Source: Chiridota heheva
Lineage: Eukaryota; Echinodermata; Holothuroidea; Apodida; Chiridotidae
Assembly: GCA_020152595.1 (NCBI GenBank)
Contig: JAIGNY010000176.1
Coordinates: forward strand, 638,501-702,500
Reading direction: 5' to 3'
Length of the DNA: 64,000 nucleotides
The notes below the pieces were generated by a model. The model searched no databases and was not told the origin of the DNA. It saw only the letters and a program-made list of their open reading frames with translations. The position numbers and the translations under genes are program-made. Shown piece after piece: positions 1 to 49,897 of this stretch; position 1 is the first letter of the stretch; the number at the start of each line of letters is the position of its first letter.

Positions 1-443
1 ATAAACAAGACACTACCACACATACATGTACGTACTGATAACAATATCACGTGGAGTACGTACGTGATGGCTGGCTGAGCACACACAGATTTTCACACAA
101 ATTGATCACATGACTTTATTTATGTCAATCTTGTCCCTGGTCTTAAAAGAAGCTTACCAGTGAAATAAGATCATCGTATTGAGGATAATAAAACTGAGCA
201 AATACTGGAAAGAAGTCATCAACAATTTTATCTGCTAAGGAGATGCTAAAAATAGTTCTCAACAGATTTGTACATAGATATTAGAAATCAGACATGGCAT
301 TAAAAGCCTGTACATATTTATAATTGGGATATTACAAAATTTCTCAATTCTTAGACATCAAAAACCATGTTGGCAAACAAGTTGAATATACTGTAAGATG
401 TACATGTCTCACAAGAAAATTAATTTATGGACAAGGGGCAGCA
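1..443. other. AT-rich DNA with no recognised feature
   Basis: No reading frame, splice pattern or repeat that I recognise. Short open frames here are of the length expected by chance. Confidence 0.5.
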
Positions 444-805
444 CAACAAAATGGCTGCCATATGTCTTATATTATTTCAGCTGAAAATTGGGGAGCCAAG
501 TGCCATTTTTTAAAAAGTTGAAAGCTTTTAATCCTGAATAAAACCTTCCACCTGCAGATTTGAAAACTAAAAATTGCAGTACAGTACAATGTTAAGGATT
601 TCAGGTAAATTCTAGATCCCTATATTATCTAAATTCCCTATATTATTTCAATTGGAAGAGGGAGGGGGGGAGAGAAGGAGCAAACCAAAATGGCTGCCAT
701 ATGTCTTGTATTATTTTGGCTGAAAATTAGGAAGGGAGGGGGGGGGGGGCAAGTGCCAATTTTTAAAAGTTTAGAGCATTTAATCGTGAATAAAACAACC
801 TAATA
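444..805 (+). repeat. Two-copy direct repeat, offset about 239 bp
   Basis: The stretch beginning CAAAATGGCTGCCATATGTC at 447 recurs at 686. It continues through a matching GCTGAAAATT, a shared AAGTGCCA and a TTTAAT...TGAATAAAA end. The second copy has an expanded G run. No coding content is seen. Confidence 0.7.
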
Positions 806-1698
806 TTTTTTTTGAAGTTCAGGATTTCAGGCAAATTATAGCCTATATTTATTGCATTGCGCCATAGATCCATTCAGTCGTGTGAGGATAATTAAACTGT
901 TTTCAAAATTAAAAATTAAACAGTTTTGGTATCTAAGGTTTCACCAAAAAGATAAGAGATAAGTCCCTCCCACCAGATTTCTCGCGATCAATAAGGAAAG
1001 TTGAAAACCGGCGGAGGTGACGTTACCAGCACGGCAGCATTTACTTCTGAATTTATTTATGGGACGAAGCCCTTCCTTAAATGGTCATTTAAGATTCAGA
1101 CTCTTCTATTTTTTTTCAATATAAAGTTAGTAACTGGTACTCAAAAGAATTATAATACAATTTTTAAAAATTGTAACTTGTTTCTTACAACTAATGTATA
1201 ATTGAATATTAATGTTGAGGTGGAGTGTTTATATGCATATTTAATGCAGGTAGCACATGACTTTGACACGAGTAAAATGGCCCAACTTTAGGAGAGCTAT
1301 TCACGAGTGCAAAGTAAGGCCTTAGAACCGTGCATTCAATATGCATACAAACACGATGCGAAAGCTTTCATCTTTTTATCAAATTTTCTTGTTAGATTGT
1401 TTAAAATGAATTAAAAAGAATGTAATACGAGAAAAGTTTACATATATTTTTTTGCTTTGTTAAGAAATTTACCTATTGTAAAAATGGACTAAACCAAAAA
1501 CTGAATATATTACTGGGATTTAATGCATGGGTCATGACAATACAAATACTCCATAGAAATTTCATAATTTTGTTACTAAAATAAATAAGCTTTTACCAGA
1601 CTGCTATTTGAGAAACAAAAACCCTCAATCGATGTTATCTCCTGGACTGATTGGTAAAAGAAGGTTCAGATACAAAACTCTTCTGTCAAATTTAAACT
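806..1698. other. Intergenic, no recognised feature
   Basis: AT-rich sequence without a convincing gene or repeat. The 66-codon open frame at 1001-1201 has no supporting features. Confidence 0.4.
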
Positions 1699-1734
1699 AC
1701 CCGTACGAAATTGTTAGGCTGACATGGAACCAAC

Positions 1735-2080
1735 TAGGCCCCGACATTGAGGCTGACATTTAAATTTGGGGCTGACATTCAAATTTTCTTCAATGTTGTG
1801 GACACAACATGAGCATGACAAAGAAGTTGGGGCCGATATGATCACAACATTTTATAGTATTTTCCTTCTAAAGCTAAGATGGGCACGGCATGAGCCCGAC
1901 ATTTCTAACTTAATCTTTTTTTCCTGACAACATCAGCATGACAGTCAAGTAGACCGACACAGGCATGACATCGTGACTTTGACTTTTTTTTCTGAGGCCA
2001 ACATGGACACGACATTTAGACTTAGTATTTTTCTCTGACTACCACATAAGAGCTTATATGAGCATGACATTCTGACTTAT
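1735..2080 (+). repeat. Left inverted arm: degenerate TGACAT-rich units
   Basis: Repeated phrases of the form GGGGCTGACATT, GAGCATGACA and GGACACGACATTT occur every 40-70 bp, with T-rich spacers. They are in reverse-complement relation to the units at 6.65-7.26 kb. Confidence 0.6.
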
Positions 2081-2799
2081 AAATTGTTCTCTACATTGAA
2101 AGTAAGTTAAGGATGAATTTTTAACTTATGATCTCAATGATGTATTTTTTATAAGAAGAGTAAACTTGAGGTATCAGCATTATACTACTTGTTAAGTCAG
2201 CAAAAAGTAAATTAAACCTAGTCAAATAAGAATCTCAAATGTATACCAAAACAACAAAGAATAAGTTATAAGACTTGTCTTCAAGGAATGTAGTTATATT
2301 CAGTAACACAATGATAATTAAAATGTTACATGCACATCACACATGATCAAGAAAATTCAAAGTTGCAAAAGTTACAATCATCATACTTTTAAAAACACAA
2401 GTAGAACTATACGTTGAATGAGGCAGCCTCATTCCAACTGACTAGGAAATAATGTAGTAATCCTTCACCAAAAAACTGCATGCCTCCTCAGATCAATATA
2501 CATATTAGGTTATGTCCCACAAAGCAAAGTTTTCTCTTGTTCCTCCTCCCTGTCATTTTGCAATAAACACTTATACAAGAATTAGCCTACAAAGCTGGAA
2601 ATACATTCTGGGCCAAAATGGTAAGTTTTTGTCAACAAATGAACAATTTTCAACACGTCAAAATAGAAAACTACTAATAGTTCATTTGAAAAGAAACATT
2701 TGTACCTTTTAAGATCAAACACTTCTAGTAGCCCCAAAGGAGAATTAAAGACATTGTAAAAGTATACAAACTTTTCGTCATCCCACACCATCCCACCAA

Positions 2800-4262
2800 A
2801 TATCACCTCAAGATCAATTACGGTTTTCCCATAAAATGAGATGCAACTTTTTCCTTTTTAATCTATTATTTGACCTCTGACTTTTTAGGTACATGACCTA
2901 AATTATAGGGACAAACTTCTCATCATCCCACACCATCCCATTTTTTCTTTTTAATCAATTAATTGACCTCTGCTTTTTAGGTACATGACCCAAATTATAA
3001 GGACAAACTTCTCATCATATCACACCATCCCATTTTCTCTTTTTAATCGATAATTTGACCTCTGACCTTTCAGGTACATGACCCAAATTATAAGGACAAA
3101 CTTCTTATCATCACACACCATCCCAATTTTTCTTTTTAATCAATTATTTGACCTCTGACCTTTTAGGTACACGACCCAAATTACAGGGGACAAAATTCTC
3201 ATTATCCTATACCATGCCACCAAATATCAACTCAAGATCAATTAGTCTTTCCAGAAAAAAAGAGATGCAAACATTTTCTCCTTTTAATAATATATTTGAC
3301 CTCTGACCTTTTAGGTATGTCACCAAAGTTAAAGGGACAAACACATCTCCCTAAATACCAACTCAAGATCAATTATGGTTTTCCCCTAAATAGATACAAT
3401 TTTTCTTTTAATCAATTATTTGATCTCTGACCCTTTAGGTACAAGACTCAAGTTATAGGGACAAACTTCTCATCACCCTTCACCATCCCACAAAATATCA
3501 ACTACAGATCAGCTACGGTTTTCCCATAAAAAGAGATGCAAACTTTTCTCTTTCTAATCAATTATTTGACCTTGACCTTTAAATACATGACCCAAGTTAT
3601 AAGGGAACAAAATTCTTATCAGCTTCCACCATCCCACCAAATATCAACTCCAGATCAATTATGGTTTTCCCATAAAAAGAGATGCAAACTTTTCTCTTTC
3701 TAATCAATTATTTGACCTTTGACCTTTAGGTACATGACCCAAGTTATATGGGACAAACTTCTCATCACCCTCCACCATCCAACCAAATATTAACTAAAGA
3801 TCAATAAAGGTTTTCCCATAAAAAGAGATGCAAACTTTTCTCTTTTTAATTATTTGACTTTTTGACCTTAGGTACAAGACCCAAGTTATAATGGACAAAC
3901 TATTTATCACCCTCCACCAGCCGCCCAAATATTAACTCAAGATCAATTACAGTTTTCCCATAAAAAAAGATGTAAACTTTTCTCTTTTTAATCAATTAAT
4001 TGACCTTTAACCTTTAGGTACATGACCCAAGTAATAGGGGGACAATTAAACTTCTCATCACCCTCCACCATCCAACCAAATATTAACCCAAGATCAATTA
4101 CAATTTTTCCATAAAAAGAGATGCAAACTTTTTTCTTTTTAAACAATTATTTAACCTTTGAACTTTAGGTACATATCCCAAGTTATAGGGGGACAAACTT
4201 CTCATCACCCTCCAGCATCCAACCACATATTAACCCAAGACCACTTACGGTTTTCTCAGAAA
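2800..4262 (+). repeat. Satellite with 147-bp and 93-bp unit variants
   Basis: About 11 copies of a unit contain TTTAGGTACATGACCCAAG, GGACAAACTTCTCATCA, CCACCATCCCACCAAATAT, GATCAATTA and TTTTTAATCAATTATTTGACC. The TTTAGGTAC anchor lies near 2882, 2978, 3069, 3162, 3310, 3435, 3580, 3725, 3867, 4014 and 4167. The first three intervals are therefore about 93 bp and most later ones about 145 bp. The short units lack the roughly 54-bp middle segment that carries AACTCAAGATCAATTA and TTTTCCCATAAAAAGAGATG. Confidence 0.85.
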
Positions 4263-30100: not shown

Positions 30101-31015
30101 CCTTGATAGTGCGCCTGGCCTTGGCACGGTGGATGCAAAAGAGGTTGAGGTTGTGGGTGGTCGGTTAGTTTTGAAGTTCCTGAGGGCCCTTTTCCTGTTC
30201 TTGATGGCGGTTTTGCAGTCATCAGAGAACCAGGGGTTGGGGGGTGTTTAGGGGGTTTGAAGGTTTTGGGATAGAGCAGGTGGCGATGTTGATAAGGATA
30301 TTACCGAAGTTTGACATGGGATCCTCACCCTCGAGGAGATGGGGAGACAGGTGTAAGTCACAGAGGGTTTTGAAAAGGGGCCAGTCAGCCTTCCCGAGGT
30401 TCCAATTGGGGGTGTAGTCAGTGGGGGTTTGAAGGTTGGAGTGTATAAGAAAAGGGTAATGGTCACTACCACAGAGATCAGCAGTGACCTTCCAGCTAAT
30501 ATCAAGGAGGACGTTGGGGGAACAGATAGACAGGTCAATACAGGTAAGGGAGCCTGTGGCAGGGTGAAGGTAGGTCGGGGAGTTATTATTGAGCAAGGAG
30601 AAACTGTGCTGTCGAAGAGTGTTTTCGATGAGCTTGCCTCTGGGGGGTGGTGGTATAAGAGCTGCACAGAGGGTTGTGGGTGTTAAAGTCACCAAGAAGG
30701 ATTAAGGGGGAGGGGAGCTGAGAGATAAAGTTGTTAAGGCTGGTTAGCTGAATGTTGGCATTGTGGGGAGATAGATATTGCAAAGAGTGAAGGTTTTGTG
30801 GAGGAAGATAGACATACCTGAAGGTCAGATTGCACATAAACAGGGCTGTGTGGGATATCGTGTCTAACGAGAATGGAGACGCCCCCACAGGCCATGTCGG
30901 CGTCCACTTGATGTTTGTGATAGCAAGCGAAGTTGTTGAGGGAATAATGGTCAGTGGTTTTCAAGAAGGTTTCTTGTAGGCAGAAGACGACCGGATTGAA
31001 GGTGGTGGGTGGCAG
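27190..31015 (-). pseudogene. I-group (EN-RT-RNase H) non-LTR retrotransposon
   Basis: Domains in minus-strand order: an APE-type endonuclease (31010-30230) with CLQET near the 5' edge, GGVSILVRHDIP, LLGDFNTHNPL and CGSDHYPFLI; a reverse transcriptase (about 29.7-28.8 kb) with SGFRKRHNTLDQL, FFDLEKAFDTTW, GVPQSSILSPTLFNLSIND and VDDFTFFYSSP; an RNase H end (about 28.05-27.8 kb) with IPSYVGIPGNDRADAAAKLA; and a Cys/His C-terminus (about 27.6 kb) with CHCTLTVHHVIFACPLC. The EN-RT-RNH order is that of the I group (I, Nimb and relatives). Inactivating changes include a TAG just before VDD and many frameshifts. The 5' end is truncated at the EN start. It lies in an intron, in the same orientation as the host gene. 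Confidence 0.88.
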
Positions 31016-36412: not shown

Positions 36413-36968
36413 CTGTGCAAAGGAAAATGTATTTCTTAGAACATAACAAAATTTGAAATAGATTATAAAGAAATACATTAATATTCTAGTCTGTACTGGG
36501 TGTATGACATCATTCTTAGAGGATGTATGAACAAAATGGCAGCTCCCATGTAAGTTAATATCATCTGACATAATTAATGTTTTAATAAATTAGAAGATTT
36601 ATGCTAAATTGTTTTATAGGATGTGACTATGTGACTTTTGTTCAGATGACTTATGATTATTATTTCTATCATATTAAATGAAGAAAAAAGCAGACTTCAT
36701 GTCTCCATTAAAGACTAATGTTCTGCTCTTTTTAATAGGCTGTAAACTGTAGGTATCTGTGGAATTTGAATAGAAAAATATATGCGATGATGACAACGAC
36801 GAGTGAACACAATATATGCTGTAGATAGTTTTGTTATGACTCACACTGCACATTACATTGTATGCATTTGAATGAGCTTAACCATCTGTCAACATACAAA
36901 GGTGTGGTCTCAGATTATGAAAAATCTTTACCATTTACAAATATTTTCATATTATAAATAAATCGTCA

Positions 36969-37136
36969 CTGTTTTGACATAGTGACGAATGAAAGATCGA
37001 CTGGAAAAGTGTTTTTTTCGTTTTGACATTTTCCTCGTTTTATATAGCTAATAAATTAAATAAACTCTAAATAATTGGTAATCATAGTAATTTGCAATTA
37101 AACTTTAATTGCACATTCATCACTATGTCAAAACAG
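36969..37136. mobile_element. 168-bp MITE with 23-bp inverted ends
   Basis: CTGTTTTGACATAGTGACGA (36969-36991) is inverted at 37114-37136 (TCATCACTATGTCAAAACAG), with one mismatch over 23 bp. The inside is AT-rich with no frame. No clear target duplication was found. It lies in the intron upstream of the 36.3-kb exon, just before the palindrome. Confidence 0.7.
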
Positions 37137-38089
37137 GGACAAAATATTCTCAAAAAGAGAAAAAATTGTTCGGAATTGGGTATAACATATGTGTAGCACA
37201 TAGGAGGCAGAACAGGGAAGCACAGGGGGAATGTCCTTCCCCCCCCCCTTTCCCCCCACTTTTCTCAAAAGTAAGGAAAAGTGCCTTTCAAAGAGGACAA
37301 CTGACCTTTTTAAAGAATTTAGGATCCTGCCCTTTCAAACAATGAAAAGCTTTTCCTTCAAAGACTACAGTATATATTTGATCTTTTCATTAAAGAAAGA
37401 AACACACAAATATCAACCTAAAAATACTCAAATTGTGAAATTTGACATGCTTCGTACACGTACAATATTCTAAATTTACCCTGAAGACAAAGTCGGGGCC
37501 CAACAGCCCTACAAACTGCATTTGTTCATACTTAAAAGGCCTTTACCTCTGCCTGTCTTTGTTTTCACAGCTTATAATTTGTAAAAACTCTTTAAAATAG
37601 GGCTTTCTAGCATTCCAAAGTATGGGAGACACCCTAAAATTTATTAGTGGGGCATCTTTGAAATGGGCCATGCAGGGCATAACTTACTATTTGGACCCGG
37701 GCCATTGTCATGACATTAACTCACATGCCCTCTCCCATAAAAGGTCGCCCTTTAAAGGGATGAAAAAAAAGTGTTATATCAAATATATTTAAGTCCCCTT
37801 ATTATAATTGATGTTTTTATTGACAGATTGAAAAACGCAAGTTAACACAAACATCAAGCAAAATACTGTGACCACAGGTTTCATGCATTTAATTTGGGAT
37901 CTGCCACTGACTCACTCAACAGCTGAAGCCTGGTGTGTGATTTGGGCCATTTGGTCTAATTTATAGGCCTACTGATATACCGAGTTACATTTATTCTCAG
38001 CAAGACTAGAACGGTAAATACCATCATGGTTCGCATGCCCATGCAAATTGACACCCATATCATATGGCCCGGCCAATTATGAAAATGGC

Positions 38090-38350
38090 ATCTCACACTA
38101 AGTCCCACATGGCATCCCATGTTCCACATGGCATCCCACTCCATGTCCCACATGACATCCCATCCCTTGTCCCACATGGCATTCCACCATATCTTCCACG
38201 TAGAATCCCACCCCATGTCCCACATGACATCCCATCCCATCCCTCCAACCACGTGGCATTCCACCATAAGTCCCACATGGCATCCCATCCTATGACCCAC
38301 ATGGCATCCCACCCTATGTCCCACATGGATCCCATCTCATGTCCCAAATG
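38090..38350 (-). repeat. Degenerate ~22-bp minisatellite at the palindrome centre
   Basis: CCCACATGGCATCCCATCC-type units, about 12 copies with imperfect period. The Gly/His/Trp-rich frames on both strands are artefacts of the repeat. Confidence 0.85.
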
Positions 38351-38719
38351 AAGCATCAAGCATACTTGTTTAACGAAGGCACAGTTAATGCAAAAGATTA
38401 AAAATATTTCAAAAGGACACTGCAAATTTCTTATGTATGATACAATGGATGAGAGTGAGTTACATAATGCAATATTTAAACAGTATGATAATAACACTGT
38501 GTAGGAATGATGGAGTGCTGTGAGGATGATGGGATATGAGGGGGAGGAAATAAGAGGGGAGGGATAAAAGGGGAGGGGATAAGAAAGAGGGGGGATAAGA
38601 GAGGGAGGGTAAGAAGGAAAGGTGCATAAGATGGAAGAGTACAAGGAAATTACAGAAAACGTGGCTTCAGAAAAGTTAAAAAAATAAACTAGACTGGGGT
38701 AGGGGTGACATGTTGTCCA

Positions 38720-38945
38720 TGCTGCATCTACGTTTCAACTGGGGAAAGAAATAATACCACACACATATATCAACTACCAACAAGGTATGCACACACAAAA
38801 TACACTTTTATTTCCTATTATAGGTGTTCCAAGATTAAAGGTACAAAATAAAAGTAACTTTTTAATGCAAAGAACACATATATGCCTCACATTTGACAAA
38901 AAATGTAAATGTTAAAAGGTGTAAGAATGAAAGAAACAAGAGGCA
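38720..38945 (+). repeat. Direct repeat copy 1 of 3
   Basis: ACACATATATCAACTACCAA, GGTATGCACA, AATGCAAAGAACACATATAT and CTCACATTTGACAAAAAATG correspond to the copies starting at about 40.29 and 40.73 kb. Confidence 0.65.
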
Positions 38946-39239
38946 GAGAGCAAAGGCGGCAGAAGATGTTTGAATCTGCAGGGTACATAATCTAAGGGGT
39001 ACTTTCCAACTGTCATATTTTCAAAGCATGCAGCACAAGGGCCCTCTGTGTAAAGCCCTCTGTAAAGGGGCACCTTAAAATCTTTACAAACAAAATGGGA
39101 GAGTGCACATCAGTTAATGTCATGACAATGGCCCGGGTTCAAATGTTAAGTTTTGCCCTCTACTAATGAAATTTGGGGTGGCTCGCACACTCTAGAAAGA
39201 CCCTATTTTAAAGAGTTTTTACAAATTATAAGCTGGGAA

Positions 39240-39793
39240 AACAAAGGTAGGCAGAGGTAAAGGTAGGCAGAGGTAAAGGTAGGCAGAGGTAAAGGTAGGC
39301 AGAGGTAAAGGTAGGCAGAGGTAAAGGTAGGCAGAGGTAAAGGTAGACAGAGGTAAAGGTAGGCAGAGGTAAAGGTAGGCAGAGGTAAAGGTAGGCAGAG
39401 GTAAAGGTAGGCAGAGGTAAAGGTAGGCAGAGGTACAGGTAGGCAGAGGTACAGGTAGGCAGAGGTACAGGTAGGCAGAGGTAAAGGTAGGCAGAGGTAA
39501 AGGTAGGCAGAGGTAAAGGTAGGCAGAGGTAAAGGTAGGCAGAGGTAAAGGTAGGCAGAGGTAAAGGTAGGCAGAGGTAAAGGTAGGCAGAGGTAAAGGT
39601 AGGCAGAGGTAAAGGTAGGCAGAGGTAAAGGTAGGCAGAGGTAAAGGTAGGCAGAGGTAAAGGTAGGCAGAGGTAAAGGTAGGCAGAGGTAAAGGTAGGC
39701 AGAGGTAAAGGTAGGCAGAGGTAAAGGTAGGCAGAGGTAAAGGTAGGCAGAGGTAAAGGTAGGCAGAGGTAAAGGTAGGCAGAGGTAAAGGTC
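39240..39793 (+). repeat. 16-bp minisatellite, about 34 copies
   Basis: Units AGGTAGGCAGAGGTAA, very homogeneous, with a small block of AGGTACAGGT variants near 39430-39480. Homogeneity implies recent expansion. The 201-residue minus-strand frame over it is a repeat artefact. Confidence 0.97.
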
Positions 39794-40289
39794 TTTAAGT
39801 AATAACAAGTCCCATATGTAGTCCTCTTTGAGAGGGTACTTTTCCTAGGGCTGTTGGGCCCAACTTTGTCTTTAGGGGGAAATTAGAACAACGTATGTGC
39901 ATAAAGCGTGTGAAATTCCACAAATTTAGTCTTTTTAGGGCGATATTTGTATTATTTTCTTTAATGAAACAATCTGATATGTAGTCTTTGAACAAAAAGT
40001 GTTTCAATGTTTAAAAGGGTAGGCTCCTTCTCTAAAAAGGGCACCTGTCCTCTTTAAAAGGGTACTTTTCCTTCTGAAAAAAGGCACTTTTTAAACTTTT
40101 GAGAAAAGTCTTTCAAGTGCATGTGCCCCTGTGTCCCCTCCCCCCGATTCCGCCGCCTATGGCAGAGAGTATGTATTTGCGATAAAAACATATTGCAAAG
40201 AGGTCAAGGAGAGAGTGAGGAATAACACAGTTAAAGATAGAGAAATGGGCAATGTGATATCAGAAAAGGTAATAATATTCTGAAAACTG

Positions 40290-40912
40290 GGGACAGGTGC
40301 TGAGCGGCTGGATGCAGCACAATTGGAATTGGTGGGAAGAAATCATGCTGCATACATATATCAACTATCAGTCAGGTATGCATAAAGCACACTGAATATT
40401 TACTTAATTCTGGTGCAACTGATGAAAAATAAATATGTTAAAGCCATGAAAGGCAAAATTAGTGTATGCACAGCACACCTATATTACTTCACATTGGACA
40501 AAACATTGCAAAAATGAAAGAAAGTTTGAAGAGCTCATTACTTAAAGAACAGGGGTGGTGCCAGCTGGGGCATCGCCAAGGACCTCTATCCCCACCCCCA
40601 CCCCACAAACAAACAAATCAATCAATTTGTCAGAGAGTGATAGGAAAATGCTATGGGTAAGGGAAAAAATTCAAATTTTAACCCCAGAGAGGCTAGCCCC
40701 AACGTTGGACAAATCCTAGCACCACCCCTGAAGCACACTACATATTTACTTGCTTCTGGAGTACAGCTGATTGAGAAAGCATTAAAGAAAACAAAGGCTT
40801 AAGTGCAAGAAAGACGACTTAAAACTTTAAAATGCAAAGCACACCTACACTACTTCACACCTCACAGAACACTGCAAATTTTGAAGGAAGTATAAAGACA
40901 GCTTTGAAAAGC
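40290..40912 (+). repeat. Direct repeat copies 2 and 3
   Basis: Copy 2 starts at about 40.29 kb (ACATATATCAACTATCAGTC, ACACCTATATTACTTCACAT, ATTGCAAAAATGAAAG) and copy 3 at about 40.73 kb (GAAGCACACTACATATTTAC, ACACCTACACTACTTCACAC, ACTGCAAATTTTGAAGGAAG). Confidence 0.65.
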
Positions 40913-40992
40913 AAGGCAATCAAAGAAAGAAAATAAGAGCAATAGGACTTAATTCAGGCAAACCACACTTGCACATCATCCACAGTACTTAC

Positions 40993-43870
40993 ATCTTAAG
41001 GTCAAGTAGAAGGATGATAGCAGCCGCATTGTTAACGAGTACGGAGGCCACGTGAGACTTGTTGTCATTATCATCCTGAGGACCGACACCAGTGCTCTCA
41101 TCAAAACCACCTTTGCTTCCTTTAGGTTGTTTTCTGAACCGTGTTCAGAATTTGGGGATGAGGGCCCTGTTCTATGAAGTACATTTTCATCTGATTGACT
41201 GTTTGAATCAGTTTCGTCAGATATAGTATTCAAATGTTTTCCAAAAAGCCATGGAAATTTTGTTGGTGGGACTGGTGGCACTATATCAGTGCTTGATTGA
41301 TTGTCTTGATCAACCTCTTTTGCGACTTGCGACTCAACCTCTTCAATATGCGATTCAACCTCTTCAATATACGACTCAACCTCTTCAATTTGTAGCTCAA
41401 CCTCTTTATTTTGCGACCCAGCCTTTTTATTTCGTGACTCAGCCTTTTTAGTTTTTGACTCATCTCGTCTCTTCTGAAAATGATCATGTTGCATATCTAA
41501 TGCCTCTTTTGGCATATTCCTACTTGAAAGTGGAGATTCATTTGTACTGGGTAAAGTCTCGTTAGCACTAATTGAAAAGTAGGTTTCATTTACATATTTC
41601 TTCGCTTTATCGATTGTCGCACCAAAGGAATCAAACTGCTGCTGATTAGCAGCAAGCATTTGCATATTCAGGCTGTTTTTGATGGACGACGTCTTGTTTG
41701 CAAATTCCTCAGAACATTCTGAAACTCTGGAAGACTGTTGGAAATCATTCTTACCTTGATCAATGTGACTTGAAGTCCCATCTAAGTATGACAAAGCTCC
41801 ATGCTCATCTGGCATGTAAATCTCTGGCTGTGCACATTTATCACCACCTGCTTTAGTTCTCTCTTTGGTGACTGGTTCAGAACTTACCAACACATCAGAT
41901 AAGTCCCCAATGTGCTCAGCAACATTCATTGTCTTATCGTCAGCTAACCCATCTACTTTTATGTTCTTGTTCGAATCTGTCAAATCACTTGAGAAACCTA
42001 GTTTCTCCTCTCCACTACAAACATTTGTTCGTTCCTTTTCTATTATACTTAATTCCTCTGAAGATGCATTCCTTATTTTTTCCTCAAAATTACCCTCTTC
42101 ATCCTTGGACTGAAACATTGACAACTGGTTCATTAAGTCAAATGACAAATCAGACGCAAGATTTGTCAATTCTTCTCTGTCCTCCAGAGACGGCTGAAGT
42201 TTCTTTCTTGACTTTTTTGCCATAAAACACATCTTTAATGTATTCCTTTCTAATGCAAAAGATTCTTCTTCCGTCTTTTTATACTCTTCTGTCTGCTCAC
42301 CGAGATAATCCAAAGATTGTACCATTTCATCGCAAAAGGGCACCTGCTCCGTCTTATGTTCAGGGTTCTGAAAAATGTTCCAACCAATTGGATCACAGGA
42401 GCTCTGGCTACTTTCCCCGACTTCTACATGACATGTTTCAGATGAAGTGGGCACTATAGTACCATATCTACACCTTGCGGAGGATGCAAATTCATCTCCT
42501 AAATTGTCAGAATCCAAAGAACTGATGGAACTTTGATCACTTCCTTGAGTGGAAGGTATGATCTTCTTTTTGGCTCCTGGATAATCATTCAAATCATTTG
42601 ATAACAGACAATTTTTCCTACCCGCTACATAGTTCTCCCTACCCTCTAAAGAGTTCTCCCTACCATCTACATAGATCTGCCTACCATCTAAAGAGTTCTC
42701 TTTACCATCTACATAGATCTCCTTACCATCTGAATAGTTCTCATTTGTTCTTATTGATGAAGATAAACAAGGCATGTCTGGTTCATGATCCTCGACAAAA
42801 TCCCCACCCCCTCCCAGGAGATCCACACTGTCAGAGTTTGAATCATCCAGTGACTCCCACAAGGTGTAACTCCCACAAGAAGGATATGATGCAAAACTAT
42901 TTGAGGATAACGACATCAGTGACTCCAGGTCGGAATAAATGCTGTCAGTAGGTGGTACAATCTCCTTCTGTAACATCCCTCTCCCTAAGTAAGAGTCTGA
43001 AAAAGACTGACCAATGTCAGAACAAATTGCATCTGAGTTTTGGATTGGTTCATCTAAATTCTTCACTTGTAACAAATGACAATCATTTTTGAATGAATAA
43101 TCTTCCTCCTCTAAGTCACTTACATTTTCTATTTCATATTTTTCAGAATCCTCGCAATACCTGTCTAAAGCATCCTTATCTCTGTCAAAGTTCTTGCCAT
43201 TAGCGTCAAAATTCTTGTCATCATGATCAGGATTCCGGTCACCTTCTTCATAATCCTTGTAATCACTGCTAGAACCCTTTTCATCACAATCACTTGCACA
43301 ACAACACCCAAGACAGTCTGACAAATTTTCCCCCTCCAAATTCAATAAGTCTGAGACACTTAATATCCTCTTCTCTTTTGAACTTGTTTCTAATTCCACA
43401 TGACTTGGGTCAGATCTTGACGGCCTTACATCTCTCACATCCAAAGCTTTGTCAAGTTTTGAATTATCCACATCTGGTACACCAATCAAATTCGTCACTT
43501 TCCTAATTTGAATATAGCGACTCTCATCTTCCTCACAAACAATCTCATTCATCAAAATTCTAACAAATCTTGATGCACCTTTTCTTTGACCTTTAACCCT
43601 TTGGCATTTAACCCTGCACATAGAGCACCACTCTGATGGCATCTGATATCCATCAGCTTTTGTTGGTTCATAAACCAACTTACAGACATCGATATAAACC
43701 GAATTATTCTTCCATTCTTCATTTTGCACGACTGGTGTCTTCTTCTCTTTCTTCCTGAATAACTTTGACCAAAATCTTTTTGGTTCAACATGCTTTCCTT
43801 TTTTTGAATAACTGAAGTATACTTCACTTCCACTTACAAAAGATTTGCGGTCACTTGCAAAGACATTCAT
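40993..43870 (-). CDS. Large coding exon, acidic repeat-containing protein of unknown family
   Basis: An open frame of 964 codons from the first ATG (43870, A at -3) is far beyond chance in this AT-rich DNA. The N-terminus is basic (FRKKEKK about residue 40); a Cys cluster WCSMCRVKCQRVKG lies about residues 80-95 and CLGCCCASDC about 200. The middle is Asp/Ser/Glu-rich and low in order. Two sets of heptad repeats occur: DG(K/R)(E/Q)(I/N)(Y/S)(V/L), six copies (42.6-42.75 kb), and KK/EEVES(Y/H/Q)I, about six copies, likely coiled coil (41.33-41.46 kb). PPVPPTKFPW follows. The exon ends at donor CTTAAGAT|GTAAGT. The long frame enters that donor in the wrong phase. The frame one base away, open from 41144, reads GGFDESTGVGPQDDNDN, then AAAIILLLDLK, and fits the next exon. 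A one-base loss near the AAAA run at 41130-41133 would explain this. No signal peptide or clear membrane span. Function not assigned. Confidence 0.85.
41325..41465 (-). repeat. Coding 21-bp repeats encoding EEVES-type heptads
   Basis: CAACCTCTTCAATATGCGATT-type units, about six, each in frame and each encoding seven residues: KKAESRN, KKAGSQN, KEVELQI, EEVESYI, EEVESHI, EEVESQV. The period of seven suggests a coiled-coil segment that can change length without frameshift. Confidence 0.85.
42605..42750 (-). repeat. Coding 21-bp repeats encoding DGKEIYV-type heptads
   Basis: Six in-frame units: DGKEIYV, DGKENSL, DGRQIYV, DGRENSL, EGRENYV, AGRKNCL. I/Y/V- and N/S/L-ending units alternate, so the DNA has a 42-bp higher-order period. 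Confidence 0.88.
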
Positions 43871-44832
43871 TCTCTGGCTTGAATTATTCAGCAATTTTTC
43901 ATATTTGATTTCTTTGTAAATTTTTCAGAATAAAATCGTATTCTTCATTGATGCATTTTTCATCTGTATGCCAAAACTTGCATTATGCAGATTAAAGAAT
44001 TCTGAAAGCGCAACCCCAACTTTCATTTAAAACCTGCATACCCATCTTAGACAAAAATTGTCTGCAGATTTCAACACTGGCATTTTATTGATTATCTACA
44101 TTTTAATATATCTTCAAAAATCTCCCTTCCATTTTTCCATCTGGCATATGGTACTGTACTATTACAAGGTCCTGTCAACAATCTTTGCAAGTACTGTAGC
44201 ATGAAAAAAGTACCGTAGGAATTCAGAAGCTACCAATCTTCAACTGGCATTTCAAATATACAGTGAGAATTCAGAAGTGATAAATATATTATGTAACATT
44301 AAGGGAAGCATATATTTCATAACGAAGTGCTGTTATCTTATCCAGATTTAAATTATAATAAATGAAAGAACAACCTGCTATTATATTGTGTGCACTGTTT
44401 AACGCTGCTTGAATGCATGATTTCTTTGATGTTTCAATTACATGAAAGGAATTGTCAGTCACTCTGTGAAGTTATGTATTTTTGTGAATCTTCTCCATCA
44501 CCATTTTCTCTGACTTTATTAATGTCAAATTAACAAATCTACCCTGCACCATCACCAATGTTCAACCTTTTGAGGACATTAAAAGTAAAAACAAACTACC
44601 ATGAATACAAGACAGACGCAAGACAAAGGTATCCATGTGAAACAGGATCAACGCACAAACAATTAGCATAAATATACACCTCCAGATCAAATGAATCCAG
44701 CCACAAACTTTAGCTATACAGCACAACAACTGTTTACCTCAGTAAAACAATGACTATGAACGACTTGCACCATGGAATGAGTTAGTATTACAGCTTGTTA
44801 AAAATTGTGAGCATGATTTTGGACTGGTGAAA
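43871..44832. other. Probable intron/5' flank upstream of the large exon
   Basis: A TGA lies 10 codons upstream of the first in-frame codon, so the coding part starts within this exon unless an acceptor is used nearby (candidates: TTACAAAG before about 43915, TTCAAGCCAG before about 43872). A minus-strand AATAAA near 44516 could end an upstream transcript. No other feature seen. Confidence 0.35.
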
Positions 44833-45872: not shown

Positions 45873-48112
45873 AAACCCACCCATGAAAGGAAACCCTTCC
45901 TATGTCCCTGATGCTGAAGCATGCACCCTTTGCTTAAATATCAGTGACTTTGGGAAGATGGTTATCTGTCATTGAAGGCCTATTATACAACATCAGGTAC
46001 CACATGGACAAGTCTATACATAAGTGTTTAATGTCAATGTCATAAAGATACAGCACCTCCGTTTGCTGCAGTGTAATAATCCGATGGTATCTACCATCTT
46101 CAAGATCGAATAGGTCTTTTGGTTGATTCCAACTTTGAAATGAAGCAGTAGATCAAAAGCATGGAATTATTGCTGCCTAAGGTATTCTTCGACAAAGAAT
46201 GAACTTGTCAATTAGATCGATTGTTTTCTTACAAAAACATTTGACTTGTGTCATGTATGATTGTACTATAGTCTAAAGTCATCTGAATGAGAACGAATTA
46301 ATTTGTTGCAGTAATTTGATTTTCTTATTAAAAAAAGATCATGTGTCTAAATGATACATTTGTAAATTTAAAGTTGGAGGGGCCAAATACCCACTTAACT
46401 GAAAAGTTGGGGCCAATGCCCTCCCCCCCCCCCCTGCTTCCAGTGTGTATGAAAGGTAGCGTGGTAGGTCCAAATTACAACCACGTCAGGAATAAATTTG
46501 TAATTTAATTTTCAAAAATAAAATTATGATATCGACTCATCAATTTTCCAACTTATTCTCCAATCCTCTGAAACAATGTATGATGATAATCGATTTGTCA
46601 AAAGAAACTTTGCGATGAAAAATAAAACAAAATATTTTGAACTGCACACTTGAAGTATGATGCATCTAATTTAATTTCCATTGGAAATGGAGCTTAAATA
46701 ACAATTGGTAATCATACAAATTTTGTCAAACTTTGCTAAGGTGGGTAATATCAGGGGTGGTTAAAATTCTTGGGTGGTTAAAATTTGGGTTATTCACTAT
46801 ACTAGTTAAATTGTTAAACTTGTATCTTCAAGCACTCAACAAAGACCCAAGGCATGGTAGAAATCAATATCATCTTATTCTATTATTCAATACACCATTC
46901 TATTTCCTGGCAGGTTTCTCAGCCTTTATAACAACAGCTTTGAATAAGCCAGGAAGGACCATTTAAGTTTTACCTCTAACAAAATTGATTTCTTGGATTG
47001 TGAGAAACCTTTTTCAAGTAGCTGGTAATAAATGAATACAAGAGAGGTGTGTGCTTTAGGGTCTGCTGAGCAGAGAGAGACTGGGAGGAATTAATTAGGA
47101 GAGAAGAGGGTTTGCAGACCCCCAGCTTGATTTGAAAAAGGGCAGGGTGCTAGATTTGTTGAGGGGCATATTGATGCACTGCACCTTGTAGGCGTGGGGT
47201 CCAAGGGTCCACTAAAGCCTTGAGCCCCTGGTGAACCTCTGGGATTTTAGCTATAATCCTACCTCAGAATAAAACTATTCTGAATAATTAAAGTACAGGG
47301 TTAGAAAAAAAACGGCTGCTCACCAAAAAAATTGTGGCGAGTAGAAATATTATAATATACTATGGTACTCGTCACACTTAGTTAAGCCTCGCCAAGCTGC
47401 ATAAATGATTGGCATGTGACTTTTTTGTATTTTCCCAACCCTGATTAAAGATCATCCATGAACCAAACAGGACAATCGTTACTATCATATCATTCTGTGT
47501 TCTGTATCCATGTACGGTATTTCACCTATGAGGTTAAGATATGTCATTAAAAAAAAAAAAAAAAGGATTACAAAAATTATAAATAATTCTTAAACAAAAT
47601 TATGAGGGGAGGGGGCAAGGCCAAAGAGGAGCAGGGCAGGCCAAAGCAAAGCTAGGGCACTGCTTTGGGAAGCAGTATGCTTGGCATACGAAGGCTACTG
47701 ATTTGTGGGTCCCCCTTTAGAATAATACTGAATACATTTTATTGATTTTCCTCACGTTATGTGTTGCCGCCTATGAAAAAATAAGAAAAATAGCTCCTAC
47801 ATGTATGCAGAAAAATAGATAAATAAAAAAATAGATATTTACTTTCAAATCATGTCTAAAATCATGTTTCAATTACAATTTGGAGTAAAAATCAATTCGA
47901 GAAACAAATATAGACATTCGGCAATGAATTATCACGATCGAAATGACTTCTCAACTTTGCTTTCATGAATAAAATTTTACTTTATTAGTTAAGTTCAAAT
48001 GACAATTTGAGTGTAACAAATGATTCCCGAACTGTCCTCAACCAAAAAAGGTCACCGTCATCAAGAAATTGTTTTAATTTCTTGAAGCATGTTCACACTT
48101 GATTATGAACAC
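45873..48112. other. Intergenic, no supported gene
   Basis: Contains C-tracts (46423-46434) inside GGGGCCAATGCCC-type text also seen at 35.3 and 63.5 kb, an A-tract near 47548, and otherwise unassigned DNA. The 77-codon plus frame at 46733-46966 has no signature. Confidence 0.4.
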
Positions 48113-49873
48113 ATGATCAGACCTACTACAAGCGATCAGATTAGTCACTAAATCTTCATCCTAGGCTAGAGTACGATCATAATCAGACCCACTGCAAGCA
48201 ATCAGATCTGTCACTAGATCTTTATAGGCTGGGGTAGGATCCTAATCAGACCCACTGCAAGCAATCAGATCTGTCACTAGATCTTCATCCTAGGCTAGGG
48301 TAGGATCCTAATCAGACCCACTGCAAGCAATCAGATCTGTCACTAGATCTTCATCCTAGGCTAGGGTACAATCATAATCAGACCCACTGCAAGCAATCAG
48401 ATCTGTCACTAGATCTTTATAGGCTGGGGTAGGATCATAATCAGACCCACTGCAAGCAATCAGATCTGTCACTAGATCTTCATCAGGACCCATGATCAGA
48501 CCCACTGCAAGCAATCACATCTGTCACTAGATCTTCATCCTAGGCTAGGTAGGATCATGATCAGACCCACTGCAAGCAATCACATCTGTCACTAGATCTT
48601 CATCCTAGGCTAGGGTAGGATCATGATCAGACCCACTGCAAGCAATCACATCTGTCACTAGATCTTCATCCTAGGCTAGGGTAGGATCATGATCAGACCC
48701 ACTGCAAGCAATCAGATCTGTCACTAGATCTTCATCCTAGGCTAGAATACGATCATAATCAGACCCACTGCAAGCAATCAGATCTGTCACTAGATCTTCA
48801 TCCTAGGCTAGGGTAGGATCCTGATCAGACCCACTGCAAGAAATCAGATCTGTCACTAGATCTTCATCCTAGGCTAGAGTACAATCATAATCAGACCCAC
48901 TGCAAGCAATCAGATGTCACTAAATTTTCATCCTAGGCTAGAGTACGATCATAATCAGACCCACTGCAAGCAATCAGATCTGTCACTAGATCTTCATCCT
49001 AGGCTAGAGTACGATCATAATCAGACCCACTGCAAGCAATCAGATCTGTCACTAGATCTTCATCCTAGGCTAGAGTAGGATCATAATCAGACCCACTGCA
49101 AGCAATCAGATCTGTCACTAGATCTTCATCCTAGGCTAGTGTAGGATCATAATCAGACCCACTGCAAGCAATCAGATCTGTCACTAGATCTTCATCCTAG
49201 GCTAGGGTAGGATCATAATCAGACCCACTGCAAGCAATCAGATCTGTCACTAGATCTTCATCCTAGGCTAGAGTACAATCATAATCAGACCCACTGCAAG
49301 CAATCAGATCTGTCACTAGATCTTCATCCTAGGCTAGGGTAGGATCATAATCAGACCCACTGCAAGCAATCAGATCTGTCACTAGATCTTCATCCTAGGC
49401 TAGGGTAGGATCATGATCAGACCCACTGCAAGCAATCAGATCTGTCACTAGATCTTCATCCTAGGCTAGGGTAGGATCATGATCAGACCCACTGCAAGCA
49501 ATCAGATCTGTCACTAGATCTTCATCCTAGGCTAGGGTAGGATCATAATCTGACCCACTGCAAGCAATCAGATCTGTCACTAGATCTTCATCCTAGGCTA
49601 GGGTAGGATCATAATCAGACCCACTGCAAGCAATCAGATCTGTCACTAGATCTTCATCCTAGGCTAGGGTAGGATCATAATCAGACCCACTGCAAGCAAT
49701 CAGATCTGTCACTAGATCTTCATCCTAGGCTAGAGTACGATCATAATCAGACCCACTGCAAGCAATCAGATCTGTCACTAGATCTTCATCCTAGGCTAGG
49801 GTAGGATCATAATCAGACCCACTGCAAGCAATCAGATCTTTCACTAGATCTTCATCCTAGGCTAAGGGAAGGA
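48113..49873 (+). repeat. 66-bp satellite, about 26-27 copies
   Basis: Units contain GATCATAATCAGACCCACTG, CAAGCAATCAGATCTGTCAC, TAGATCTTCATCCTAGGCTA and GGGTAG or GAGTAC. A few copies lack the CATCCTAGGC part (48.22, 48.42 and 48.48 kb) and several have GATCATGATC. The unit carries several short palindromes (AGATCT, CCTAGG, TGATCA). Unlike a CRISPR array, the unit has no variable spacer. Confidence 0.97.
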
Positions 49874-49897
49874 TCATGATCCAGAGCATGAGCTTAA

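Follow-up and report, generated by a model that had tools for sequence, protein, structure and literature searches.

A 64,000-nucleotide stretch of Chiridota heheva DNA, referred to below as the window, contains two homologous arms in inverted orientation, 1.4-2.6 kb apart, one of which carries a 16-bp minisatellite of about 34 near-identical units and the other a single unit, as the first-pass annotation of this DNA had recognised. The features of the locus are collected in Table 1. Tandem Repeats Finder assigns the minisatellite a period of 16, 34.4 copies and 99% matches. Thirty of its units are identical, unit 7 departs from them by one G>A, units 13-15 have an A>C in common, and the last element of the array is a partial unit covering 6 of the 16 bp. 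A pattern of unit length allowed up to three mismatches matches the window 35 times, against a shuffle mean of 0.37, and one of these 35 matches is the lone unit of the left arm (37543-37558, minus strand). The annotation had placed that unit at about 37543-37560; it is indeed there, with limits in the array register that begin two bases later. It carries two substitutions (AAAGACAGG versus AAAGGTAGG), and the left arm, proposed as the progenitor, is rather a sister copy. Across the assembly (1,100,099,931 bases in 3744 contigs), a two-unit pattern search with up to three mismatches locates a multi-unit 16-bp array on contig C168 only; a second near-identical copy of the locus was not found there either, the next best match being 83%. 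The unit was also compared with the human minisatellite core: the best agreement, 10 of 16 positions, was reached by 8414 of 20,000 shuffles, and the longest run with one mismatch, 10, by 482 of 20,000. The likeness was dropped as weak and post hoc.

Table 1. Features of the two transposon copies and the array, in window coordinates (L009 is a full copy of the family elsewhere in the assembly).
Feature	Position	Strand	Remark
8-mer GTGTAGCA, presumed 5' half of the left copy's target-site duplication	37191..37198	+	adjoins family 5' terminus CATAGG
Left copy of the dispersed transposon, approximately the first 816 of 1249 bp of L009	37199..38005	+	3' part missing
Lone unit of the left copy, AAAGACAGGCAGAGGT, mutated sister of the progenitor	37545..37560 (array register)	-	
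Target-site duplication GCAGAGAG, 3' side of right copy	38943..38950	+	8/8 identical to 40162-40169
Right copy of the transposon, 1211 bp including the array	38951..40161	-	both termini present
16-bp minisatellite, 34 x AAAGGTAGGCAGAGGT plus 6-bp partial AAAGGT	39243..39792	+	Tandem Repeats Finder and unit-by-unit register
26-bp insertion in right copy, 92% copy of its own 40047-40072	39821..39846	+	
Subterminal repeats of the element, ~22 bp	40025..40091	-	repeat number differs among family copies
Target-site duplication GCAGAGAG, 5' side of right copy	40162..40169	+	perfect mate of 38943-38950

Both arms belong to a dispersed family. The left arm matches 40 other places in the assembly at 79-83% identity, with 40 scored out of 2271 first-look candidates. 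Nineteen copies were fetched with their flanks (L002-L020), and these flanks are unrelated except for those of L005 and L011, two copies that are 97% alike and have more than 1 kb of flank in common, so that the 19 copies represent 18 independent insertions. The full copies L004 (1251 bp) and L009 (1249 bp) are single and non-palindromic, and their longest stop-free stretches are 68 and 72 amino acids. The commonest element ends are CATAGGCGGCGGAA at the 5' side and TTCTGCCGCCTCTG at the 3' side, with variants in single copies; by eye, the 5' end and the reverse complement of the 3' end, CAGAGGCGGCAGAA, agree as TIRs at 12 of 14 positions. Target-site duplications were scored in the eight copies in which both ends are credible, L012 and L019 being left out because their 5' match is not. 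An 8-bp duplication is perfect in the right copy, L006 and L015 (low-complexity in L015), 7/8 in L017 and 6/8 in both L004 and L009; none is present in L002 and L008, whose best agreement with shifted ends is 5/8.

According to the available text of PMC3517528, an 8-bp target-site duplication and short TIRs of 5-27 bp are marks of hAT elements, and the family has both. It also has the properties of a MITE, being non-coding and present in many dispersed copies with target-site duplications, at a length of ~1.25 kb that is long for a MITE. From its sequence, the family looks like a non-autonomous, non-coding, hAT-like DNA transposon. The hAT MITE Mar, as presented in the same text, similarly combines an 8-bp duplication, a short imperfect TIR (CAG(G/A)GGTAGGC), a lack of coding capacity and many copies, but is 610 bp long (PMC3517528). 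No paper on this transposon was found in a literature search made without the organism's name, and Rfam gave no match at its gathering threshold for window positions 36500-41000.

The two copies in the window have lost different parts of the element. Positions 87-816 of L009 match 37277-38005 in the left copy, the 5' end of which was placed by terminus comparison; its 3' third is missing, its flank is unlike that of the right copy, and no mate of the left-flank 8-mer GTGTAGCA was seen by eye. In the right copy, positions 1163-1249, 342-560 and 65-311 of L009 match 39037-38951, 39263-39079 and 40091-39846, respectively, which leaves an internal deletion of ~600 bp relative to L009 and L004. Divergence from the family consensus is 10.1% for the left copy and 9.5% for the right.

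Several other elements surround the pair. An inverted repeat with 35-bp arms (86%) and a short AT-rich core, at 36957-36991 and 37114-37148, closely precedes the left copy and may be a further small MITE, and just after the left copy lies a 24-bp minisatellite, CCCATGTCCCACATGGCATCCCAC, at 38085-38351. Repeats of 22 bp similar to CCCATGTCCCACATGGCATCCCAC adjoin the family copies L014 and L051, and this minisatellite may be either a common dispersed one or one associated with the family. The right copy is flanked by a 49-bp direct repeat, 80% identical (38743-38791 and 40334-40382), which hints at insertion into an older repeated region. Farther along, the minus strand of 40976-43924 is a stop-free frame of 982 codons, for 981 residues of which Pfam returned nothing at E values up to 0.01; the frame may be one long exon of some unnamed protein. 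A tandem array with a 66-bp period, 27 copies and 93% matches occupies 48112-49881. Pfam searches of five open frames gave one sub-threshold endonuclease-reverse-transcriptase match, at 30222-30698, and none in the other four, and a tRNA scan of the window found 0 genes.

The family copies bear directly on which state of the site came first. Each of the 19 other copies fetched shows a single unit here, whole or altered: part of it is gone in L013 and L015, the unit of L019 is slightly short and that of L003 more diverged, and in L009 a small insertion adjoins the unit. Genome-wide, a pattern of one unit with its flanks, allowed up to three mismatches, has 390 matches (193 + 197) and its reversed control 0; these 390 matches do not equal 390 insertions, as one tandem array on C2966 accounts for seven of the matches listed and another on C1255 for two. 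A two-unit pattern ending in AA has 27 exact matches, all within the window array, and a two-unit pattern in another frame, with up to three mismatches, has 34, made up of 33 in the array and one dimer. This dimer is exact (C1010:1295846-1295877) and belongs to a family copy, L049, in which it occupies the same site and register as the window array and is followed by AGAGG instead of AAAGG. L049 and the right copy have 3 non-consensus sites in common, against a mean of 3.5 over 231 pairs, and by identity L049 has the right copy in 7th place of 21, the right copy L049 in 19th place of 21. These figures do not point to common descent of the dimer. The 16-bp duplication probably happened twice, with independence suggested by these comparisons, and the C1010 dimer could alternatively be a contraction of a longer array or have been inherited. 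Taken across the family, the sequences show that the single unit is ancestral and that the array was born in the right copy. The annotation had drawn the same polarity from the two arms, for which the family copies are the stronger evidence, and it had read youth from the homogeneity of the array; homogeneity fits youth but is not a clock, since slippage and exchange homogenise arrays too.

The family consensus, AAACAAAGGTAGGCAGAGGTAAAGGCC on the reverse strand, suggests how the array may have begun. At the site it reads AAAGG-TAGGCAGAGGT-AAAGG, with AAAGG direct repeats 16 bp apart bounding the unit, and so has the progenitor unit between direct repeats of ~5-10 bp that is expected under the model of Haber and Louis. 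In the right copy, the 16-bp segment would first have been duplicated by slippage or unequal exchange between these short repeats, 6 bp long in this copy if the AAAGGT edge predates the array; the two-unit product, with its longer perfect homology, would then have grown to 34 units by slippage or unequal exchange. This mechanism and the order of its steps are read from structure alone. The A>C common to three adjacent units points to local duplication inside the array. Of the 19 other copies, 7 retain the 5-bp AAAGG pair at period 16, and the AAAGGT version occurs at no fewer than five of the listed one-unit sites; as the intact-pair and AAAGGT sites are unexpanded, the short repeat is permissive and not sufficient.

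Previously described systems offer several points of comparison. The model of Haber and Louis (1998), as relayed in the available portions of PMC6947457 and PMC3389668, likewise starts from a unit within a 5-10 bp direct repeat, which is duplicated by slippage or unequal exchange and then grows on longer homology; what differs here is the presence, in the same genome, of many unexpanded sister sites and one two-unit copy. Short flanking repeats and a partial terminal unit are described in these portions as signatures of minisatellite origin (PMC6947457, PMC3389668). PMC3389668 covers 7276 human TE-derived tandem repeats, of which 300 are accompanied by flanking repeats of 5-20 bp and 159 end in an incomplete unit. 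The flanking repeats of our array fall in that length range and a partial terminal unit is also present, although at 6 of 16 bp it is shorter than the terminal units of at least 90% counted there. An incomplete terminal unit, here AAAGGT, is also found in a system with Poecilia reticulata in its title, going by what is accessible of that source, whereas our array lies in a DNA transposon copy and its partial is much shorter than a full unit. As for minisatellites and satellites derived from transposable elements, the cases of human Alu, mouse B1 and MaLR, and Xenopus miDNA4 and Xstir, as far as PMC6947457 and PMC9659126 are available, similarly involve an array arising from an internal segment of a mobile element; here, by contrast, the element is hAT-like and the 16-bp array was found once, unspread with the family.

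We consider it very probable that two transposon copies inserted independently and that the array grew in the right copy by short-repeat slippage or exchange, an explanation anchored in the family membership, the target-site duplication, the ancestral single unit and the second copy with two units. Within it, the two hAT-like family members would have inserted separately, tail to tail, ~1 kb apart. For the first duplication, break repair with template switching (microhomology-mediated) in place of simple replication slippage is a possible but rather unlikely route. Its appeal lies in the 26-bp insertion of the right copy, which is templated from the copy's own subterminal region ~200 bp away and was not seen by eye in the 19 other family copies; this insertion is separated from the array by 28 bp and may have arisen independently of the duplication, and repeats of 5-6 bp are enough for either route.

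Whether the arms form one structure can be judged from their homology, which we assessed using local alignments plus one global alignment. On one side of the array 39846-40073 aligns with 37511-37273 (77.5%, E 2e-46) and on the other 39095-39263 aligns with 37738-37540 (75%, E 1e-37), and the homology on both sides that the annotation's account relied on is borne out. Over the common core (424 columns) the copies are 82.5% identical, against a mean of 82.9% for all 210 family pairs; among the 20 comparisons available to each copy, the arm-arm identity ranks 13th for the left and 11th for the right. The suggested inter-arm conversion has left no sign. The inverted orientation, homology and spacing of the arms would suit one transposon of the foldback type or an inverted duplication formed locally, the array having expanded in one arm (Tetris/FB-like), and a clade of left and right copies is not formally rejected (p-AU 0.31) by a star-like family tree that has little power, 15 of its 18 inner branches being open. 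Such an origin is nonetheless very improbable. A foldback element would be one element with long inverted arms and common outer termini, but full copies elsewhere are single, non-palindromic and ~1.25 kb long, the internal losses differ between the arms, the identity of the arms is no higher than that of other family pairs, and the other inverted pair examined, L048, is head-to-head where the window pair is tail-to-tail. By itself the right copy is bounded by both termini and by a perfect 8-bp target-site duplication, which largely refutes this reading; the palindrome that had been treated as a unit resolves into two separate insertions. By rough arithmetic under random placement, the expected number of inverted pairs closer than 3 kb is ~0.2 at 390 copies and ~7 at 2271. 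The Tetris/TIR-220 system, in the accessible text of PMC4079207, resembles the family in having tandem repeats within a DNA transposon and copy-number variants; Tetris is foldback-like, with 220-bp repeats in its TIRs, whereas we see separate inverted insertions with the repeat in one.

The palindrome is incidental to the birth of the array. Expansion driven by a hairpin of the arms, as the annotation had envisaged, could draw on a 63-nt stretch that is 95% complementary between the arms and extends into the first array unit, and we hold it to be exceedingly unlikely: neither strand of the repeated unit takes up a Watson-Crick fold (0 kcal/mol, with 200 of 200 shuffles folding at least as well), the arms, at 82.5% identity, are separated by more than 1.3 kb, and the 2.2 kb fetched around the C1010 dimer (the element and only ~0.7 kb of one flank) shows no second copy in inverted orientation. 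Equally far-fetched is an array ancestral to the right copy's subfamily with the single-unit copies as contractions, for although shortening at the site does occur (L013 and L015), one unit in 19/19 fetched copies and 390 pattern matches, against one array and one dimer, would imply that many old insertions contracted independently to the same single register, which is implausible.

Independent insertion with growth in the right copy leaves the behaviour of the site in the rest of the family to be considered, and duplications of other lengths are found there. In L051 (G000:C1255:789700-790400, positions 1-358) the neighbourhood of the site is present in 3.8 copies with a period of 87 bp, in a register unlike that of the window array. 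In L050 (G000:C2966:53000-56000, positions 85-3001) the interior of the element forms a 697-bp tandem array with 97% matches, and the seven site matches on C2966 are ~700 bp apart; this looks like a transposon-derived satellite in the making. We put forward only tentatively, as somewhat less than an even prospect, that tandem duplication has an intrinsic hot spot at this site, a reading that takes together a 16-bp segment duplicated at least twice independently (to 2 and 34 units), an 87-bp duplication in a third copy and a ~700-bp one in a fourth place.

Events of this type are already known and reviewed, on the evidence of the available parts of PMC6947457, PMC9659126 and PMC3389668, and the value of the present case lies in its many internal controls and its dimer. 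It is a clear example of a new tandem repeat born inside a mobile element, and it corrects an easy misreading, in which two inverted copies of one element pass for a palindrome with an array in one arm. The first duplication of a minisatellite is seldom easy to observe, as the sequence that preceded the array no longer exists; here, one genome retains the starting site in hundreds of transposon copies, beside a dimer and a 34-unit array. The short-flanking-repeat model is thereby made countable, in the number of sites, in which flanks they have and in how many were duplicated. If the hot-spot reading is true, the family would constitute a natural replicate experiment with several hundred similar starting sites in one genome, in which the rate and rules of minisatellite birth would be measurable.
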